33,358 bases of DNA from Desulforapulum autotrophicum. Its GTDB lineage: Bacteria > Desulfobacterota > Desulfobacteria > Desulfobacterales > Desulfolunaceae. The DNA lies in NCBI GenBank assembly GCA_020723285.1, contig DYJE01000044.1:1-33358 (forward strand), given 5' to 3'. Shown piece after piece: positions 1 to 13,780 of this stretch (positions are counted from its first letter, which is position 1; every line of letters begins with the position of its first letter). Below the pieces are notes generated by a model. That model ran no database searches. It had not been told where the DNA came from and saw only the letters and a program-made list of their open reading frames with translations. The translations under genes and the position numbers were made by a program.

Positions 1-14
1 AGTTTTTATTAATT

Positions 15-76
15 AATACATGTTGTTATGAAATTCTACTTTTTACGAGTCCATCTATGTTCGATGTTCGATGTTA
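15..76 (+). repeat. Terminal repeat, left copy: 41-bp core plus GATGTTC heptads
   Basis: Positions 15-55 are identical to the reverse complement of 33318-33358 (41 of 41 bases by eye). The core is followed at 56-76 by three imperfect heptads (tatgttc, gatgttc, gatgtta). The right copy has four heptads, so the core is fixed while the heptad count varies. It lies just beyond the dnaB stop codon. A dispersed intergenic repeat that ended the assembly is the simplest reading. Confidence 0.85.
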
Positions 77-102
77 AAATTGGTATTCCCGCATCCGCTG
101 TA

Positions 103-1488
103 TCACTCGTAGGAGCCATAATCCCCGTATTCACCCAGGACAACATTTTCAAACCGGGTGTACTGGCCGATGAAGGTCAGCACCGCCTTGCCCACGGCAC
201 CGTTCCTGTTTTTCGCCACAATGATTTCGGCTTTTCCCTTGTTGGGGTTGTTTTCCTCTTTATTGTAAACCTCGTCCCTGTAGATGAAGGTGATGATGTC
301 CGCGTCCTGCTCGATGGCTCCCGATTCCCTAAGGTCGGACATCATGGGTCGTTTGTCCGCCCGCTGCTCCACCTGGCGGTTGAGCTGGGACAGGACGAGG
401 ATGGGAATGTTCAGTTCTTTGGCCAGGGATTTCAGGGACCGCGAGATTTCCGAAATTTCAAGATCCCGGCGGTCACCCATGAACGGCCCTTTCATCAGCT
501 GGAGGTAGTCGATGATGATCAGGGAAAGGTCCTTGTCCATCTTGAGTCGGCGGGCCTTGGCACGGATTTCCATGGCCGAGACGTTGGGCGTGTCGTCGAT
601 GTAGATGGGGGCTTCGGAAATGATCCCCGCCGCTTCCGTGACCTGACGCCAGTCGTCTTCGCCGATCATGCCGGTTTTCAGCCGGTCCGAGTTCACCCGG
701 GCTTCGGCGGTGAGAAGACGCATGGAAAGCTGTTCCTTGGACATTTCCAGGGAAAAGATCGCCACCAGCTTGTTTTCATTGATGGCCACGTTCCGGGCGA
801 TATTCAGGGCAAAGGCTGTTTTCCCCATACTGGGCCGGGCCGCCAGGATGATCAAATCCGAATTCTGAAGACCCGAGGTCAGGGCGTCCACCTGTTTGAA
901 GCTAGTGGGAATGCCGGTATACTCGCTGTTGTTGTTCTGCCGTTCCTCAAGGGTGTTGATGTTCTTGATCACCAGTTCGCTCAGGTGGGAAAAGGTGGGC
1001 TTGAGCTTGTTGTCCGCCACATCGAAAATGGCGGTCTGGGCAAAATCGATGGTTTCCGCGGCGTCGCCCTGTTCAGCGTAACATCGGTGGATGATTTCCG
1101 ATGATTTTTCGATAAGGCGGCGCAGCGACGCTTTGTCATGGATGATTTTCCCGTGGTATTCGGCGTTCAGCGTCACGGGCACCGTGTCCATCATCCGGGC
1201 CAGATAAGCCGCCCCGCCGATTTCCTCCAGTTTTCCCTTGGCCTTGAGGTGGTTCACCAGGGTCACCAGATCCACCGGCTCGCTTTTGTTGAACAGCTCG
1301 GTCATGGCTTCGTAGATGATCTGGTGGGCCGGTTTGTAAAAATCCACGGACTTGATGATCGACGCCACATCCGTCAGGGTGTCGTTGTCAAGAAGGATGG
1401 CGCAGAGCACCGACTCTTCCGCTTCCAGGTGATGGGGCGGCAGTTTCTCCGAAATGATGTCTTTTTTTTTCTTTTTGGTTTCAGGCAT
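103..1488 (-). CDS. dnaB: Replicative DNA helicase DnaB
   Basis: Hexameric replicative helicase that unwinds DNA at the fork and works with primase. The 461-residue protein has the usual length. An N-terminal DnaB domain (about residues 15-120, containing HHLEAEESVL) is followed by a RecA-like ATPase core: Walker A ARPSMGKTA at about 217-225, Walker B IIIDYLQL at about 324-331, and a late arginine-rich stretch (QLNRQVEQRADKRP, then SDLRESGAIEQDADI). The ATG at 1488 is chosen because the reading frame upstream of it shows no DnaB similarity. No clear Shine-Dalgarno precedes this ATG. It lies 32 bp downstream of an exported protein gene on the same strand, so the two may be cotranscribed. No intein or frameshift is seen. 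Confidence 0.97.
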   Translation of the reverse strand: MPETKKKKKDIISEKLPPHHLEAEESVLCAILLDNDTLTDVASIIKSVDFYKPAHQIIYEAMTELFNKSEPVDLVTLVNHLKAKGKLEEIGGAAYLARMMDTVPVTLNAEYHGKIIHDKASLRRLIEKSSEIIHRCYAEQGDAAETIDFAQTAIFDVADNKLKPTFSHLSELVIKNINTLEERQNNNSEYTGIPTSFKQVDALTSGLQNSDLIILAARPSMGKTAFALNIARNVAINENKLVAIFSLEMSKEQLSMRLLTAEARVNSDRLKTGMIGEDDWRQVTEAAGIISEAPIYIDDTPNVSAMEIRAKARRLKMDKDLSLIIIDYLQLMKGPFMGDRRDLEISEISRSLKSLAKELNIPILVLSQLNRQVEQRADKRPMMSDLRESGAIEQDADIITFIYRDEVYNKEENNPNKGKAEIIVAKNRNGAVGKAVLTFIGQYTRFENVVLGEYGDYGSYE

Positions 1489-3089: not shown

Positions 3090-5678
3090 ATGGCACACGT
3101 GACCCGAAAAAACATCACCGCACCCGTCATCACGGGGTTCGCCCTTTTTACCCTGTTTTTTATCGCCTTGGGTGCCTTGTCCGTCCACACCGCGATCCGC
3201 CTCGCAAACATTACCAGCACCCTTGAAAACCATTGTTTCCGGGTTTCAAACGCCGCGCTGTCCTGCAAATGGGCTGTCTCGGAACTGATCTGCCAGCAGG
3301 ATCGAATGTTCGGGGACCCCAGAGACGCCAACACAGGAAACCCCGGTGAAATTGAACGTTTGAAAAATCTCTTCTCCGGCTATCTCCAGGTGGTGGAAGA
3401 TAATGTCCTTGAAGCGGACGGAAAGAAAAAAGCGGAAGATACCCGCCGCATTTTTTCGGAATGGATGGCTGTCATGGAAAACCTGACCACCATGAGCCAC
3501 GAATCCGGCCGGAAACCTTCCATAGCGCGGATGAAATCAGACGGTGAAATCAAGGCGGTGGCCCTGGAAAAAAATATCCAGGAACTGATGTATGGAGCCC
3601 AGAGCAGCACCGAAAACCTCATCGGACTCGGCACCCTGCTGAAACAGCGGCTTATCGCCTTCTTTTCCCTGGCCCTTGCCTTTTCCCTCGTTCTGGCCCT
3701 GACTGTGACCATGCTCAGCCATCGCTGGGCACGGACATGGACAAAAACCTTTTTTGAAAGTGAGGCCCGGTTCCTGGGTGCTTTCGAACACGCCAACAGC
3801 GGCGTGGCCCTGGTTTCCATGAGCGGTCATTTAATGAAAGTCAATGAGAAACTTTCCGAAATCATGGAATATTCTGTTGACGAACTTGAACGCTCCACGG
3901 TGGACCGGATCACCCATCCCGAGGATCTTCACATCAGTCGGCAATACATGAACGACGCGGTTTCGAACCGTAACGACCGGGCTGTTTTCGAAAAACGATA
4001 CATCACCCGAAACGGGCGGACCGTATACGGCGAAGTGGCCATCTCCCTGATCCGCAGCAGCTCGGACGAACCCCTGTATTTCGTGTCCCATGTCAAAGAC
4101 GTGACGGAAAGCCGGAAAGCCATGGAGGCCTTGAAAAAAAGCGAGAACCGCTACACCCTGTCCCATCGTATCGGCGGCATAGGGACCTTCGAATGGAACA
4201 TCAAGAAAAAAAAGGTGTACTGGGCCGAAGAGACCCGGGCCATATTCGCCGTGGATTCATCGGGTTTGGGCGGCGACTACGAGGGCGTCAGGGAAAGAAT
4301 TCACCCCGAGGATTACGATTCGTTTCTTGCGGCCGTCTCGGAAAGTATCCGGGAAAAAAAGGAATTCAGGGCCGAAATGCGGATCGTCCTTCCGGACAAC
4401 AGCATCAGGCATGTCCGGGCTTTGGGCGATGTGAGCCGGGATGATGAGGGCCAGCCTGACACGATGACCGGTGTTGTCATGGATATCACAAAAATTAAAA
4501 CCGACGAAGAAAAACACAGGGATCTGGAAAGGCAGCTTATGCGCTCCCAGAAAATGGAAGCCATCGGCCGTCTTGCCGGAGGCGTGGCCCACGATTTCAA
4601 CAACCTTCTGTCCATCATCCTGGGGTACACGGAATTGATGAAAGACGAACTTCAGGAAGACCATCCCCATTATCCGGCCGTCAGTGAAATCATGGATGCG
4701 TCACTGAGAGCCAGGACACTGACCCGCCAGCTTCTGGCTTTCGGCAGAAAGCAGTCGCTTGAAATCGGCGTTTTCGATGTAAACACGGTGATCCGGAATT
4801 TTGAAAAACTCCTCCTGAAAATGATCAGCGAGGACATTGAGCTGAATCTTCAGTTGTGGGAACATCCGGCCATGATCAATGCCGACAGTTCCCAGCTGGA
4901 GCAGGTCCTGATGAACCTCGTGGTCAATGCACGGGACGCCATGCCCAACGGCGGACGCCTTTGCATTGAAACCACCCTTTTTGAAATCGATGAGGATTCC
5001 GCAAAAAGCAGACAGGGCGTGGAGGCGGGTCCCTATGTGCTCATCGCGGTGAGTGACACCGGCATGGGTATTGCCAAGGAAGACCTTGACAGAATTTACG
5101 AGCCTTTCTTCACCACCAAGGAACAGGACAAAGGCTCCGGCATGGGGCTTGCCACGGTATACGGCATCGTCCGGCAGCACGGTGGACATATCTGGGTGTA
5201 CAGTGAAGCGGGTTACGGCACCACATTTAAAATTTACCTGCCCGAAGTTCGGGGCACCCCTGAAACCCGTGCCGTGCATCAGATCTCGAAGCCCATAGAA
5301 ATGAAAAAGCCGGCCACCATTCTGGTGGTTGAAGATGACGAATCCCTTTGTGTGCTTTCGGTGCGAATTCTTGAAAAAAGCGGCTACAGGGTTCTTTATT
5401 CCCACAAACCCTGGGAAGCCGTGGAAAAGGCCCTTGAATTCAAGAATACCATCGATCTGCTCATCACCGATGTGATCATGCCGGACATGAAAGGACCGGA
5501 CGTGTACGAGAAAATCCGGGCCATTCATCCGGGTGTGAAAGTCCTCTACATGTCCGGTTATACCGAAAGCATGATCACCCGACACGGTGTTTTTGATAAA
5601 GAGGTCGGCTTCATCCAGAAACCTTTTTCTAAGCAGATGCTGCTGGAACACACCGCCAAAGCACTTGCGGTGTTCTGA
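3090..5678 (+). CDS. Membrane-bound PAS hybrid histidine kinase with receiver domain
   Basis: Sensor kinase of 862 residues from the ATG at 3090; a TTG at 3078 would add four. Domains in order: membrane helix (about 10-34), periplasmic sensor region (about 36-185), second membrane helix (about 188-212), PAS/PAC 1 (about 225-345), PAS/PAC 2 (about 355-472), and HisKA with the phosphoacceptor His501 in GGVAHDFNNLL. HATPase_c follows with the N box NLVVNARDAM (about 609-618), the G1 box DTGMGI and the G2 region GSGMGLATVYG. A C-terminal receiver (about 742-862) carries the acidic pair in VVEDDE, phosphoacceptor Asp794 in LLITDVIMP, and the conserved Lys of FIQKPF. All catalytic residues are present, so it should be active. 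It lies between a cNMP-binding protein and a CHASE protein with short gaps, consistent with one signalling operon. No dedicated response regulator with an output domain is encoded beside it. Confidence 0.93.
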   Translation: MAHVTRKNITAPVITGFALFTLFFIALGALSVHTAIRLANITSTLENHCFRVSNAALSCKWAVSELICQQDRMFGDPRDANTGNPGEIERLKNLFSGYLQVVEDNVLEADGKKKAEDTRRIFSEWMAVMENLTTMSHESGRKPSIARMKSDGEIKAVALEKNIQELMYGAQSSTENLIGLGTLLKQRLIAFFSLALAFSLVLALTVTMLSHRWARTWTKTFFESEARFLGAFEHANSGVALVSMSGHLMKVNEKLSEIMEYSVDELERSTVDRITHPEDLHISRQYMNDAVSNRNDRAVFEKRYITRNGRTVYGEVAISLIRSSSDEPLYFVSHVKDVTESRKAMEALKKSENRYTLSHRIGGIGTFEWNIKKKKVYWAEETRAIFAVDSSGLGGDYEGVRERIHPEDYDSFLAAVSESIREKKEFRAEMRIVLPDNSIRHVRALGDVSRDDEGQPDTMTGVVMDITKIKTDEEKHRDLERQLMRSQKMEAIGRLAGGVAHDFNNLLSIILGYTELMKDELQEDHPHYPAVSEIMDASLRARTLTRQLLAFGRKQSLEIGVFDVNTVIRNFEKLLLKMISEDIELNLQLWEHPAMINADSSQLEQVLMNLVVNARDAMPNGGRLCIETTLFEIDEDSAKSRQGVEAGPYVLIAVSDTGMGIAKEDLDRIYEPFFTTKEQDKGSGMGLATVYGIVRQHGGHIWVYSEAGYGTTFKIYLPEVRGTPETRAVHQISKPIEMKKPATILVVEDDESLCVLSVRILEKSGYRVLYSHKPWEAVEKALEFKNTIDLLITDVIMPDMKGPDVYEKIRAIHPGVKVLYMSGYTESMITRHGVFDKEVGFIQKPFSKQMLLEHTAKALAVF

Positions 5679-5710
5679 ACGATGTTAAATGAACTGACGG
5701 GAAAACAACA

Positions 5711-7123
5711 ATGCCTCAGGACAACGACGTGATCGAAGATAAAACCATACCCCTCAGGCGGTATATCCCTGCAGCCCTGTTTCTTTTTTTCGGAACGTTT
5801 CTTTCCCTGATTTTCTTTGTCTCCATCAGCAACCGGGAAGATGAAAGCCGACGCCTTCAGTTTGAAAATCACGCCGGACTCATGGCCGATGAACTGGCCA
5901 TCCGTTTATCGGACTACCTAGGAGCCATGCACTTTCTCGGAGATTTCTTCTACAATTCAGACGAAGTGTCCCTGCACGAGTTCAGTCAGTTCACACGAGG
6001 CGCACTTCAGCGTTTTCCGGAATTCAAAGCCCTGGCCTGGTGCCCTTACATCCGGGCTTCCGCCAGAAAGGCCTTTGAAAAGCAGATGGGGTTTAACATC
6101 AGGGAAATGGTGAAAGATGGCGTTCTTGAAACGGCAGGCCTCAAAGAAGACTACCTCCCCGTGGCCTATGTCGAACCCCGGTCCGTCAACGAAATAACAC
6201 TGGGCTTTGACAACACCTCGGAGCATGTCCGCCGCAAAGCGGTGCTTCAGGCCTACCACTCCGGAAAAATCACGGCCACGGCCCGAATCGATCTGATTCA
6301 GAAACCGGAAAAAGATCACGGGATTCTCATAATGCTGCCCATTTATTCAAAAAAGGCCAGTCAGCCCGGCCAAGAAGCCCGGCTGAACAAACTCGACGGC
6401 TTTGTGGTCGGTGCCCTTGTTCTTGACGATGTGATCGGCAAAACCCTTTCCCCGTTCAAAAACCAGGGGCTTTGGCTGGAGGTTTGCGACAAGTCGGCGG
6501 ACTCATCGGACATCCTGATCGTGTCTTTCCCAGCCAGGCCGACTGAGGCCAGGGAACAACCGGTTGTCATGGCCCTTAACCGCCATGTGGATTTCGCGTC
6601 CAGGGAATGGATGATCCGCATCGTCCCCGCACCGGATTCAACGTTCGTGCAACGATCCTTTTATCCCCTTAGCATTCTTGCTGTGTCCATGATTTTCACT
6701 CTCATGGTGGCGCTTCACATGATCCAGAAAATGACCGCCGGATTTGAAAACGAATGGCGGATGAAGCACGAGCACCTGATCAATGAACGACTTGAAACGG
6801 AAATCATCCGCCGCGAGCAGGAGGAGGCCCGGCTCCGGATGACTCAGCAGAGCCTGGAACGGGAAATCAAGGAACGGATCAGTCTTGAAAAACAGCGGGA
6901 CAAATCCATTCTTGAGCTGAGAAAAGCTTTGGCGGAAATGAGGAATCTCCAGGGCATCCTTCCGTTGTGCTCGTACTGCAAGAAAATCAAGGACGACAAC
7001 GGCAACTGGGAACAGGTGGACGTTTACATCCACAAGCACTCCCAGGCCGACGTAAGTCACGGCATCTGCCCGGAATGCATGCGCAAGCATTATCCTGACG
7101 AGTTCAGGGAAATTTACGGCTGA
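5711..7123 (+). CDS. CHASE-domain membrane sensor with coiled coil and C-terminal Cys4 (zinc-type) module
   Basis: The 470-residue protein starts with a membrane helix (about 17-39, IPAALFLFFGTFLSLIFFVSI). A periplasmic region follows (about 50-310) with CHASE-like features, including ALAWCPYI, AYVEP and LGFDNTSE. A second helix (about 317-340) leads to a charged coiled coil (about 345-412, many Glu/Arg/Lys). It ends in a compact module with LCSYCKKIKDDNGNWEQV and GICPECMRKHYPDEF. The four cysteines look like a zinc site, and I know this module as a C-terminal appendage of sensor proteins in Desulfobacterota. No kinase, GGDEF, EAL or methyl-accepting output domain is present. It is the third gene of the signalling run, 32 bp after the hybrid kinase, so it may feed that kinase (inference). 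Its stop overlaps the stop of the convergent panE-like gene by 10 bp. Confidence 0.85.
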   Translation: MPQDNDVIEDKTIPLRRYIPAALFLFFGTFLSLIFFVSISNREDESRRLQFENHAGLMADELAIRLSDYLGAMHFLGDFFYNSDEVSLHEFSQFTRGALQRFPEFKALAWCPYIRASARKAFEKQMGFNIREMVKDGVLETAGLKEDYLPVAYVEPRSVNEITLGFDNTSEHVRRKAVLQAYHSGKITATARIDLIQKPEKDHGILIMLPIYSKKASQPGQEARLNKLDGFVVGALVLDDVIGKTLSPFKNQGLWLEVCDKSADSSDILIVSFPARPTEAREQPVVMALNRHVDFASREWMIRIVPAPDSTFVQRSFYPLSILAVSMIFTLMVALHMIQKMTAGFENEWRMKHEHLINERLETEIIRREQEEARLRMTQQSLEREIKERISLEKQRDKSILELRKALAEMRNLQGILPLCSYCKKIKDDNGNWEQVDVYIHKHSQADVSHGICPECMRKHYPDEFREIYG

Positions 7124-9727: not shown

Positions 9728-10930
9728 ATGACGATAAAGCAGCATATCACTTTCTGGACGGCCCTTTTCTGTTTGTTCTCAACCCCCAAAGCCCATGCCA
9801 TCATCAACGGAAGTCTTGACACCACCCATGATTGCGTCGGGGCGGTTTTTTATGAAGATGTTGCCGTGACGACGGGTGTTCTGGTCGATGAGTCCTGGGT
9901 GCTGACTGTCGCGCACGCTCTGGATTATGCGCCGGCATCCCATTTCGTCATTGGAAACGATTTCGCAAGCCTTGATTCAACGGTGTATGCTGTCGATCAG
10001 ATCATCGTGCATCCGGCGTACGCCATGACAGGCGGTATACCTGCCAATAATTTTGCCCTTCTGCATCTGACAGCCCCCGTGACCGGTGTGGACATCCTGC
10101 CGCTCATGTCGTCTTCAAATCTTTTCCCCGGGACGAACGTCCTTTCCGTCGGTTACGGAGATACGTCCAGCACGGGCAGCAGCAACACCCGGCGGCGTTT
10201 CATCGCCAGCACCATCGATTCGACCGAGGCCTCCACCTTCACTCTCGATTTTTCTTCCGGCGGGCCGTGCGGTGCGGATACGGGCGGTGCGTGCATCATC
10301 AGCTCCGGCGGTGCCGATTACATCGCGGGAATCATATCTTACGGGGATTGCGAAACCTATACCGTCAGCGGCCGCGTGTCTTCGGTTTACACATTCATCA
10401 CCGACACCATCCAGGGAGGCGGCGAGGATGTCAATCATATTCCATCAGCCCCCGGACTGCTTTCACCTTCGGACCAGGCCACGTCAGTGAACCGGGACTC
10501 CGTGACGTTTTCCTGGAACCCTTCGACCGATGAGGATGGCGACACGCTGACGTATTCGTTCTATCTCTCTGAAAACAGTTCATTTTCAGGATGCACACCC
10601 GTCAATGTCTCTGCCAGGGCCTCCAACCGGGTATACGCCGCCGGTTTTCTGTTTTCGGGTTTTTTTCTCAGCTTCCTGCTGGGGGGCCTCCGTAAAAAAA
10701 TCCAGGGAATCCCTCTGGTGTGTCTGGCCGCGTTACTGTGTGTCTTTACGGCATGCTCCGACAGCAGCGACACACCCGCCCCCGTGAACACAACCGAAGG
10801 CATGAGCCATGTTGAGGAAGACTTAGACCCTGCAACCACCTATTACTGGAAAGTGGTGGTGGATGACGGCCATGGCGGGGTCCGGTCAAGCGAGGTCCGA
10901 CGCTTCTCGACCGGCGCTGCGGCCAGGTGA
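9728..10930 (+). CDS. Trypsin-like (S1) surface protein with a split Fn3-like domain, internal membrane hairpin and lipobox
   Basis: Residues 1-24 form a signal peptide ending AHA. The mature protein would start IINGS, matching the IVGG-type N-terminus of activated S1 proteases. His63 sits in VLTVAHAL. The triad Asp position is Asn108 (NNFALLHL in place of DIALL), and the nucleophile region reads GADTGGA, placing Thr185 where Ser is expected, so activity is doubtful. From 237 an Fn3-like segment begins (APGLLSPSDQATSV, then GDTLTYSFYLSENSSF) and resumes at about 356-396 (LDPATTYYWKVVVDDGHGG). Between them are a hydrophobic helix (303-320), an RKK turn, and a second hydrophobic stretch ending FTAC at Cys343, which looks like a lipoprotein signal. 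This could be a true membrane hairpin, a processing signal or an insertion. The gene stands alone; a terminator follows. Confidence 0.85.
   Translation: MTIKQHITFWTALFCLFSTPKAHAIINGSLDTTHDCVGAVFYEDVAVTTGVLVDESWVLTVAHALDYAPASHFVIGNDFASLDSTVYAVDQIIVHPAYAMTGGIPANNFALLHLTAPVTGVDILPLMSSSNLFPGTNVLSVGYGDTSSTGSSNTRRRFIASTIDSTEASTFTLDFSSGGPCGADTGGACIISSGGADYIAGIISYGDCETYTVSGRVSSVYTFITDTIQGGGEDVNHIPSAPGLLSPSDQATSVNRDSVTFSWNPSTDEDGDTLTYSFYLSENSSFSGCTPVNVSARASNRVYAAGFLFSGFFLSFLLGGLRKKIQGIPLVCLAALLCVFTACSDSSDTPAPVNTTEGMSHVEEDLDPATTYYWKVVVDDGHGGVRSSEVRRFSTGAAAR

Positions 10931-11027: not shown

Positions 11028-13780
<2,753 letters not shown>

Follow-up and report, generated by a model that had tools for sequence, protein, structure and literature searches.

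Layout of the window gene and its Fn3 domain

The window, that is, the whole 33,358-nucleotide stretch analysed here, carries on its forward strand a 400-aa open reading frame whose predicted product comprises a signal peptide, a trypsin-fold domain and a C-terminal Fn3 domain interrupted by a hairpin of two hydrophobic helices. Its features are as follows.

9728..10930, + strand: whole protein, open reading frame of 400 aa, with the ATG at 9728 and the stop codon ending at 10930
9728..9799, + strand: N-terminal signal peptide, residues 1–24, with a likely signal peptidase I site (AHA/IING) judged by eye
9827..10390, + strand: trypsin-fold domain, residues 34–221 (PF00089, E 8.4e-17; alignments to prostasin)
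10436..10615, + strand: first half of Fn3 (strands A, A', B, C and C'), residues 237–296 (AlphaFold2, block pLDDT 92–98)
10631..10690, + strand: hydrophobic helix 1, V302–L321, predicted to run from outside to inside (sequence; low-confidence AlphaFold2 helix at domain residues 74–83)
10691..10699, + strand: positive turn R322–K324 (RKK), predicted to be cytoplasmic (sequence; loop charge pattern in relatives)
10709..10753, + strand: hydrophobic helix 2, I328–A342, resembling a lipoprotein signal (sequence; low-confidence AlphaFold2 helix at domain residues 92–105)
10754..10756, + strand: lipobox cysteine C343 (FTAC), with Cys at this place in 125 of 127 relatives
10757..10801, + strand: linker downstream of the Cys; most relatives have a Gly-rich one here (sequence)
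10802..10927, + strand: second half of Fn3 (strands E, F and G), up to the C-terminus (AlphaFold2, block pLDDT 92–98, last block 86)

This arrangement agrees with the sequence-only reading, which had described an Fn3-like domain split by a helix, an RKK turn and a second hydrophobic stretch ending in FTAC. The insert between the Fn3 pieces (within residues 237–400) measures about 60 residues. Downstream in the window, a 730-aa frame on the reverse strand (11028–13220) looks by eye like a catalase-peroxidase.

The trypsin-fold domain is probably an inactive pseudoprotease, as suggested by two alignments to prostasin: the His of the catalytic triad is kept, Asp is replaced by Asn and Ser by Thr, and the His-Asp-Ser triad of an active trypsin-like protease is thus absent from the aligned window domain. 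The signal peptide appears to stop directly before IING; judging by eye, cleavage by signal peptidase between AHA and IING would directly yield a trypsin-like free N-terminus.

For the Fn3 domain, the evidence from the window sequence itself is weak, with Pfam giving PF00041 at residues 250–293 (E 9.5e-4) and PF16656 at residues 364–395 (E 9.9e-6), each below its cut-off. An AlphaFold2 model of residues 237–400 was built with 55 aligned sequences. Its block means of pLDDT are 92–98 in the first half and 92–98 in the second half (86 in its last block), and 51–66 in the insert. Strands lie at domain residues 7–10, 15–18, 22–28, 39–45 and 56–58 before the insert and at 123–128, 135–143, 149–151 and 155–159 after it, and the two helices separate strands A, A', B, C and C' from strands E, F and G. 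Comparison of the model with the PDB (VIA-align 2) returned Fn3-type domains, the best with Z 11.1 and an rmsd of 2.8 over 97 residues (model range 2..163), and the best row of a Foldseek search against the PDB had an E value of 6.8e-4. By these two lines, model and PDB comparison, the window domain shows the seven-strand Fn3 sandwich A-B-C-C'-E-F-G, and alignment with unsplit Fn3 domains places the insert in the C'-E loop. A second AlphaFold2 model, of a Nitrospirota-like member (L154, record titled Bacterium BMS3Bbin05; 40 sequences), also pairs the halves as one Fn3, with pLDDT 90–98 and 81 in the block joining the insert and the second half. Both models represent the uncut chain, and confidence in the hairpin is low (block means 51–66 in the window domain). 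The two halves are thus predicted to pair into one fold across the insert. This is what the sequence-only reading had expected; it had also named a predicted fold with no such pairing as evidence to the contrary, and both predicted folds show the pairing.

Recurrence and family-wide anatomy of the split domain

Relatives of the full window domain occur well beyond the window. When 395 genomes of the phylum were searched with a BLAST-type method, eight relatives besides the window gene spanned the whole domain; they are located at the ends of GSDH-like proteins (L013–L015) and of proteins that by eye are subtilases (L016–L020). A profile built from these had matches at E<=1e-8 in 67 of the 244 genomes in the class around genome G279, a few of the rows being Fn3 fragments only. 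With a larger profile at E<=1e-12 and no more than nine candidates scored per genome, 12 of the 395 genomes matched, the window genome included. Within the order of the window, 14 of 146 genomes matched at E<=1e-7. A scan of named genomes kept 80 loci of 285 relatives, and among 84 profile-matching frames a regular expression flagged 61 as having the hairpin. Among the matches listed, hairpin-bearing records are titled Nitrospirae, Thermodesulfovibrio, Troglogloeales, Desulfuromonadales, Gammaproteobacteria, Gallionellales, Deferribacteres and SAR324, and a Cys-less form of the hairpin (L191) stands in a record titled Betaproteobacteria, while the Bacteroidota rows among the matches listed are unsplit Fn3 proteins; single titles may be wrong, since most records are metagenome bins. 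The best match of the window domain (L165, titled Nitrospirae) covers query residues 4–160 including the hairpin at 39% identity (E 5e-29). Because other proteins match residues 4–160 together with the hairpin, the window layout goes beyond chance. In total, 127 non-redundant tail-bearing proteins were collected from Desulfuromonadia, Nitrospirota, Gamma- and Betaproteobacteria, SAR324 and others. The module is therefore widespread across several phyla and sporadic in the order of the window, where it may have arrived by transfer. One scan of viral_contigs gave no viral relatives at E<=1e-3.

These data bear directly on the idea that the layout is a one-off insertion, a gene fusion or an assembly artefact. 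The full span is indeed rare near the window: within the order it occurs in two of the 146 genomes, namely that of the window and G703 (where L138 is by eye a CSLREA-like beta-helix protein), and among 58 near relatives searched by BLAST it is found in none except the window genome itself. However, the same layout occurs in many genomes of several phyla, which refutes a one-off insertion and leaves this explanation with practically no weight. The sequence-only reading had proposed a search for other split cases and stated that homologues lacking the insert, together with no similar inserts elsewhere, would favour such an event; similar inserts were found elsewhere. A second copy in the window genome was considered and rejected, since the candidate (L002) is an ordinary lipoprotein that matches by its signal, and two other rows are weak (E 0.47 and 1.2).

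To describe the anatomy of the family, 206 profile-matching frames were reduced to 149 distinct ones with a usable F-strand motif and hydrophobic peak (25 lacked these, and the rest were duplicates). From the 149, a further 18 were excluded, either because they were not C-terminal or because no hydrophobic stretch lay close by; judged by eye, these are Fn3 proteins without a split. Removal of four near-identical rows from the 131 selected frames left the 127; the C-terminal position is partly a selection rule, because the F strand was required within 45 residues of the end. Outside this count are L085, whose frame is broken, and L089, which has YSW instead of YYW and no Cys. L085 (reverse strand, about 3114–3143) shows a nine-G run in the Gly linker after the Cys that coincides with a frame break before the second Fn3 half, reflecting either phase variation or a sequencing error.

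In 125 of the 127 proteins a lipobox-type Cys stands at the end of helix 2, and the count is the same without a rule on the preceding residue. The residue before the Cys is A, G or S in 122/125, and L, I, M or V occupies position -3 in 100/125; the window protein, with F at -3, departs from the usual residues there. The residue after the Cys is G in 105/125 and Asp in one. The suggestion that helix 2 would pass as a lipoprotein signal, made for the window protein, is thus matched by a lipobox-type Cys family-wide. In all 125, the inter-helix loop carries more positive charge than either flank (a net charge averaging +3.5, compared with -2.0 and -1.3), which supports the positive-inside topology proposed earlier, with both Fn3 halves on one side. 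Mean hydrophobicity of helix 1 exceeds 1.7 in 121/125, and a comparison stretch further upstream exceeds it in 1/125. Both halves retain Fn3 core residues, namely the Trp of strand B and the YYWK of strand F. The Trp of strand B, the lipobox Cys and the Trp of strand F are invariant in three alignments (A2, A3 and A5), although the invariance of the Cys is partly by choice, because L065, L089 and L191 were left out and the profiles were built from Cys-bearing rows. These three are the members without the Cys, L065 and L191 within the 127 and L089 outside. L065 has THA/GE at the place of the Cys, which by eye could be cut by signal peptidase I, and L191 (2316–4820) retains the hairpin but lacks both the Cys and any evident cut site. 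Since these members lack the Cys, the module may work uncut in some proteins; L065 and L089, to judge from their sequences, may use a signal peptidase I site.

Cargo and proposed anchoring and processing

The split domain is attached to diverse cargo. Among 125 proteins, 36 match a subtilase query and two a GSDH query, and at least ten of the 125 are short proteins made of one Fn3 plus the split Fn3, a count that is too low because the pattern was narrow. In 20 chosen representatives, Pfam recognised subtilase, trypsin (L200), GSDH, SBBP beta-propeller, Calx-beta, cadherin, HYDIN/VesB-like Ig, laminin-G and GLUG repeats; six of the 20 gave no Pfam match at E<=1e-5. By eye, L065, L074, L075 and L089 are CxxCH-bearing, cytochrome-like proteins with the tail. 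At L077 (about 3369–5930), two subtilase-like genes with split-Fn3 tails have their ends facing each other. At L232 (7355–14022) and L233 (4290–12799), an exosortase gene stands a few genes away from a short gene coding for Fn3 plus split Fn3, and the neighbours appear to resemble EpsI, PrsK and PrsR.

At the N-terminus, 96 tail-bearing frames with an upstream stop in the locus were counted from stop to stop, so that the first 110 residues can include untranslated codons. A hydrophobic stretch was found in 93 of these 96 and a lipobox-like site in two, and hence the tail proteins carry their lipoprotein-type signal at the other end. In the window protein, this internal signal has the parts of a lipoprotein substrate: RKK as n-region, I328–A342 as h-region and the A342–C343 junction.

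The sequence layout, the conservation of the Cys and of the charge pattern, the diverse cargo and the single Fn3 fold predicted by modelling all suggest an anchoring function. Our preferred reading, to which we assign a probability of roughly 0.6, is that the split Fn3 with its hairpin forms a portable C-terminal membrane-anchoring module, in which the protein is lipidated and cut at Cys343 by Lgt and LspA while pairing of the Fn3 halves keeps the cargo on the lipidated half. Specifically, the N-terminal signal peptide would direct export of the precursor, leaving the first Fn3 half outside; helix 1 would stop transfer and the RKK turn would remain inside. Helix 2 would then re-enter the membrane as an internal lipoprotein signal, Lgt would lipidate Cys343, and LspA would cut in front of it. 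Strands A–C' on the cargo chain and strands E–G on the small lipidated chain, 58 residues long in the window, would together form one beta-sandwich, whereby the cargo would be held by a lipid at its C-terminal end with its N-terminus free. We infer the lipidation, the cut and the persistence of the Fn3 clasp; helix 1 may stay in the inner membrane or be trimmed. Because the layout recurs on unrelated secreted proteins in several phyla, it probably serves as a C-terminal anchor with the two cut halves clasped.

A competitor to cleavage is an uncleaved two-helix anchor in the inner membrane, with the Cys unmodified or lipidated without a cut. Two hydrophobic helices would be enough for anchoring, and L191, which keeps the hairpin without the Cys, provides a natural test case. 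A plain helix, however, is not expected to show the pattern of lipoprotein processing described above (Cys in 125/127, A/G/S before it and G after it), and we consider this reading unlikely. More improbable still is that a cut frees two independent products that separate, given that Fn3 core residues are kept in both halves and that the halves are modelled as one fold.

The preferred reading, lipidation and cleavage at Cys343, could also be extended by a second cut in helix 1, made by a membrane protease of the rhomboid, rhombosortase or exosortase type, after which the cargo would leave the inner membrane and accompany the lipidated half to the outer membrane. This extension overlaps with the preferred reading and we regard it as possible but doubtful. 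Helix 1 with its basic cluster resembles a sorting tail, AG.G is enriched near its start (41/125 against a mean of 9.4 in shuffles; 28/125 with the stretch chosen first), the residue after the Cys is not Asp in 124/125, and an exosortase lies within a few genes of two members of about 290 aa. The distribution of sorting enzymes argues against it. A rhombosortase match (TIGR03902) exceeds the cut-off in 4 of the 21 genomes that carry the module and in 1 of the 20 that do not, the latter defined by no match at E<=1e-8 in the profile search of 244 genomes, and the window genome has no TIGR03902 match at E<=1e-5. Matches below the cut-off occur in 39 of 42 genomes and in all 14 controls, and are probably other rhomboids. 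For exosortase (TIGR02602), 13 of the 21 genomes with the module and 11 of the 20 lacking it exceed the cut-off, as does the window genome. Neither enzyme is supported as an obligate partner. The idea that every member of about 290 aa comes with an exosortase was dropped: in the 11 genomes with such a member, a subset of the 21, ten are over the cut-off, and G433 has the gene and no exosortase over the cut-off.

Only tentatively do we propose a general version of the mechanism, in which the universal lipoprotein machinery would make the anchor: an internal signal would be cut inside a beta-sandwich, helix 1 would be trimmed, and the cargo would travel to the outer membrane by the non-covalent Fn3 clasp alone.

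Should the preferred reading be correct, cleavage would take place within a folded domain, and the two halves would afterwards serve as a clasp. In subtilases with propeptides the N-terminus is used or removed, and trypsin-fold proteins need a free N-terminus. A C-terminal module could explain how such proteins are anchored by lipid, and an N-terminal lipid would block a free N-terminus of the kind that the window protein may expose, a possible rationale for anchoring at the other end. For the window gene this rationale is weak, since the triad of His, Asn and Thr indicates a likely pseudoprotease. Lipoprotein predictors that read only N-termini would miss this class of tail.

Named relatives and comparable systems

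The claim of the sequence-only reading that the layout matches no named architecture does not stand, because NCBIfam has a named relative in NF058595 (invert_tail), titled "lipo-invert putative C-terminal anchoring domain". The model covers a helix, a basic loop, a lipoprotein-like helix and a Cys, as in the split-Fn3 tail; the comparison uses the name, length and cut-off of its record alone. It matches 52 of the 55 members of alignment A2 at E<=0.1. The window domain scores 15.1–16.5 bits (15.5 in the genome) against a cut-off of 37, and the full window protein retrieves no NCBIfam family at E<=10, NF058595 appearing only with the domain alone or with relatives. Weak matches to this model are unspecific, as ten other places in the window genome outscore the window gene and all 14 control genomes match at E<=1. 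At E<=1e-6, none of the control genomes and 30 of the 244 class genomes match, partly through split-Fn3 genes of the earlier profile search and partly through ordinary lipoproteins; one split-Fn3 gene (L108) and one ordinary N-terminal lipoprotein (L107) exceed the cut-off. The existence of NF058595 indicates that curators had noticed a tail of this build, with its function marked as putative. The window tail is of the same build, yet it lies below the curated cut-off and is not filed as a member. We found no description of a split-Fn3/lipobox tail in the literature searched, whose reach largely excluded subscription journals. The split-Fn3 tail thus exists, is conserved and has been little described; it is a variant of an already named kind, and the central idea of the sequence-only reading is the best available mechanism, but with a named relative.

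Ordinary lipoproteins, the substrates of Lgt and LspA, have a positive n-region, a hydrophobic h-region and a small residue followed by the Cys, which leads into a flexible tether. The split-Fn3 tail differs in that the signal is internal and near the C-terminus, and the part preceding it is exported rather than cytoplasmic. The family midcut-by-XrtH (NF033207), whose name suggests a protein cleaved in its middle by a sorting enzyme, matches 1 of the 55 members (E 0.046); an exosortase is no requirement for the split-Fn3 tail. No CTERM model of NCBIfam matched the window protein or its domain, and the MYXO-, VPLPA- and VPxxxP-CTERM models each matched 1 of the 55 members weakly (E 0.019–0.056; E 0.095 for a second MYXO model). 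Proteins of the PEP-, GlyGly- and MYXO-CTERM kinds end in a terminal tail with a signature motif, whereas here the Cys and Fn3 strands E–G come after.

The nearest studied systems found are MYXO-CTERM and GlyGly-CTERM, which a single terminal helix sets apart from the split-Fn3 tail, as far as the accessible parts of the sources describe them. In MYXO-CTERM/myxosortase, anchoring is C-terminal and an invariant Cys is proposed to be lipidated before an intramembrane cut; according to the accessible part of that source, the Cys precedes a single helix at the extreme C-terminus and there is no defined lipobox (PMC11980579). In the split-Fn3 tail, by contrast, the Cys follows the second helix and is itself followed by half a folded domain. 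In GlyGly-CTERM/rhombosortase, a serine protease such as VesB is held at the cell surface by its C-terminal end through a helix and basic residues; in the accessible parts of these sources, the tail lies at the extreme C-terminus, with no second helix, no motif Cys and no split domain (PMC13393428, PMC3237569). The MYXO-CTERM and GlyGly-CTERM anchors need dedicated sorting enzymes, whereas for the split-Fn3 tail the general lipoprotein enzymes could suffice, acting in the middle of a protein.
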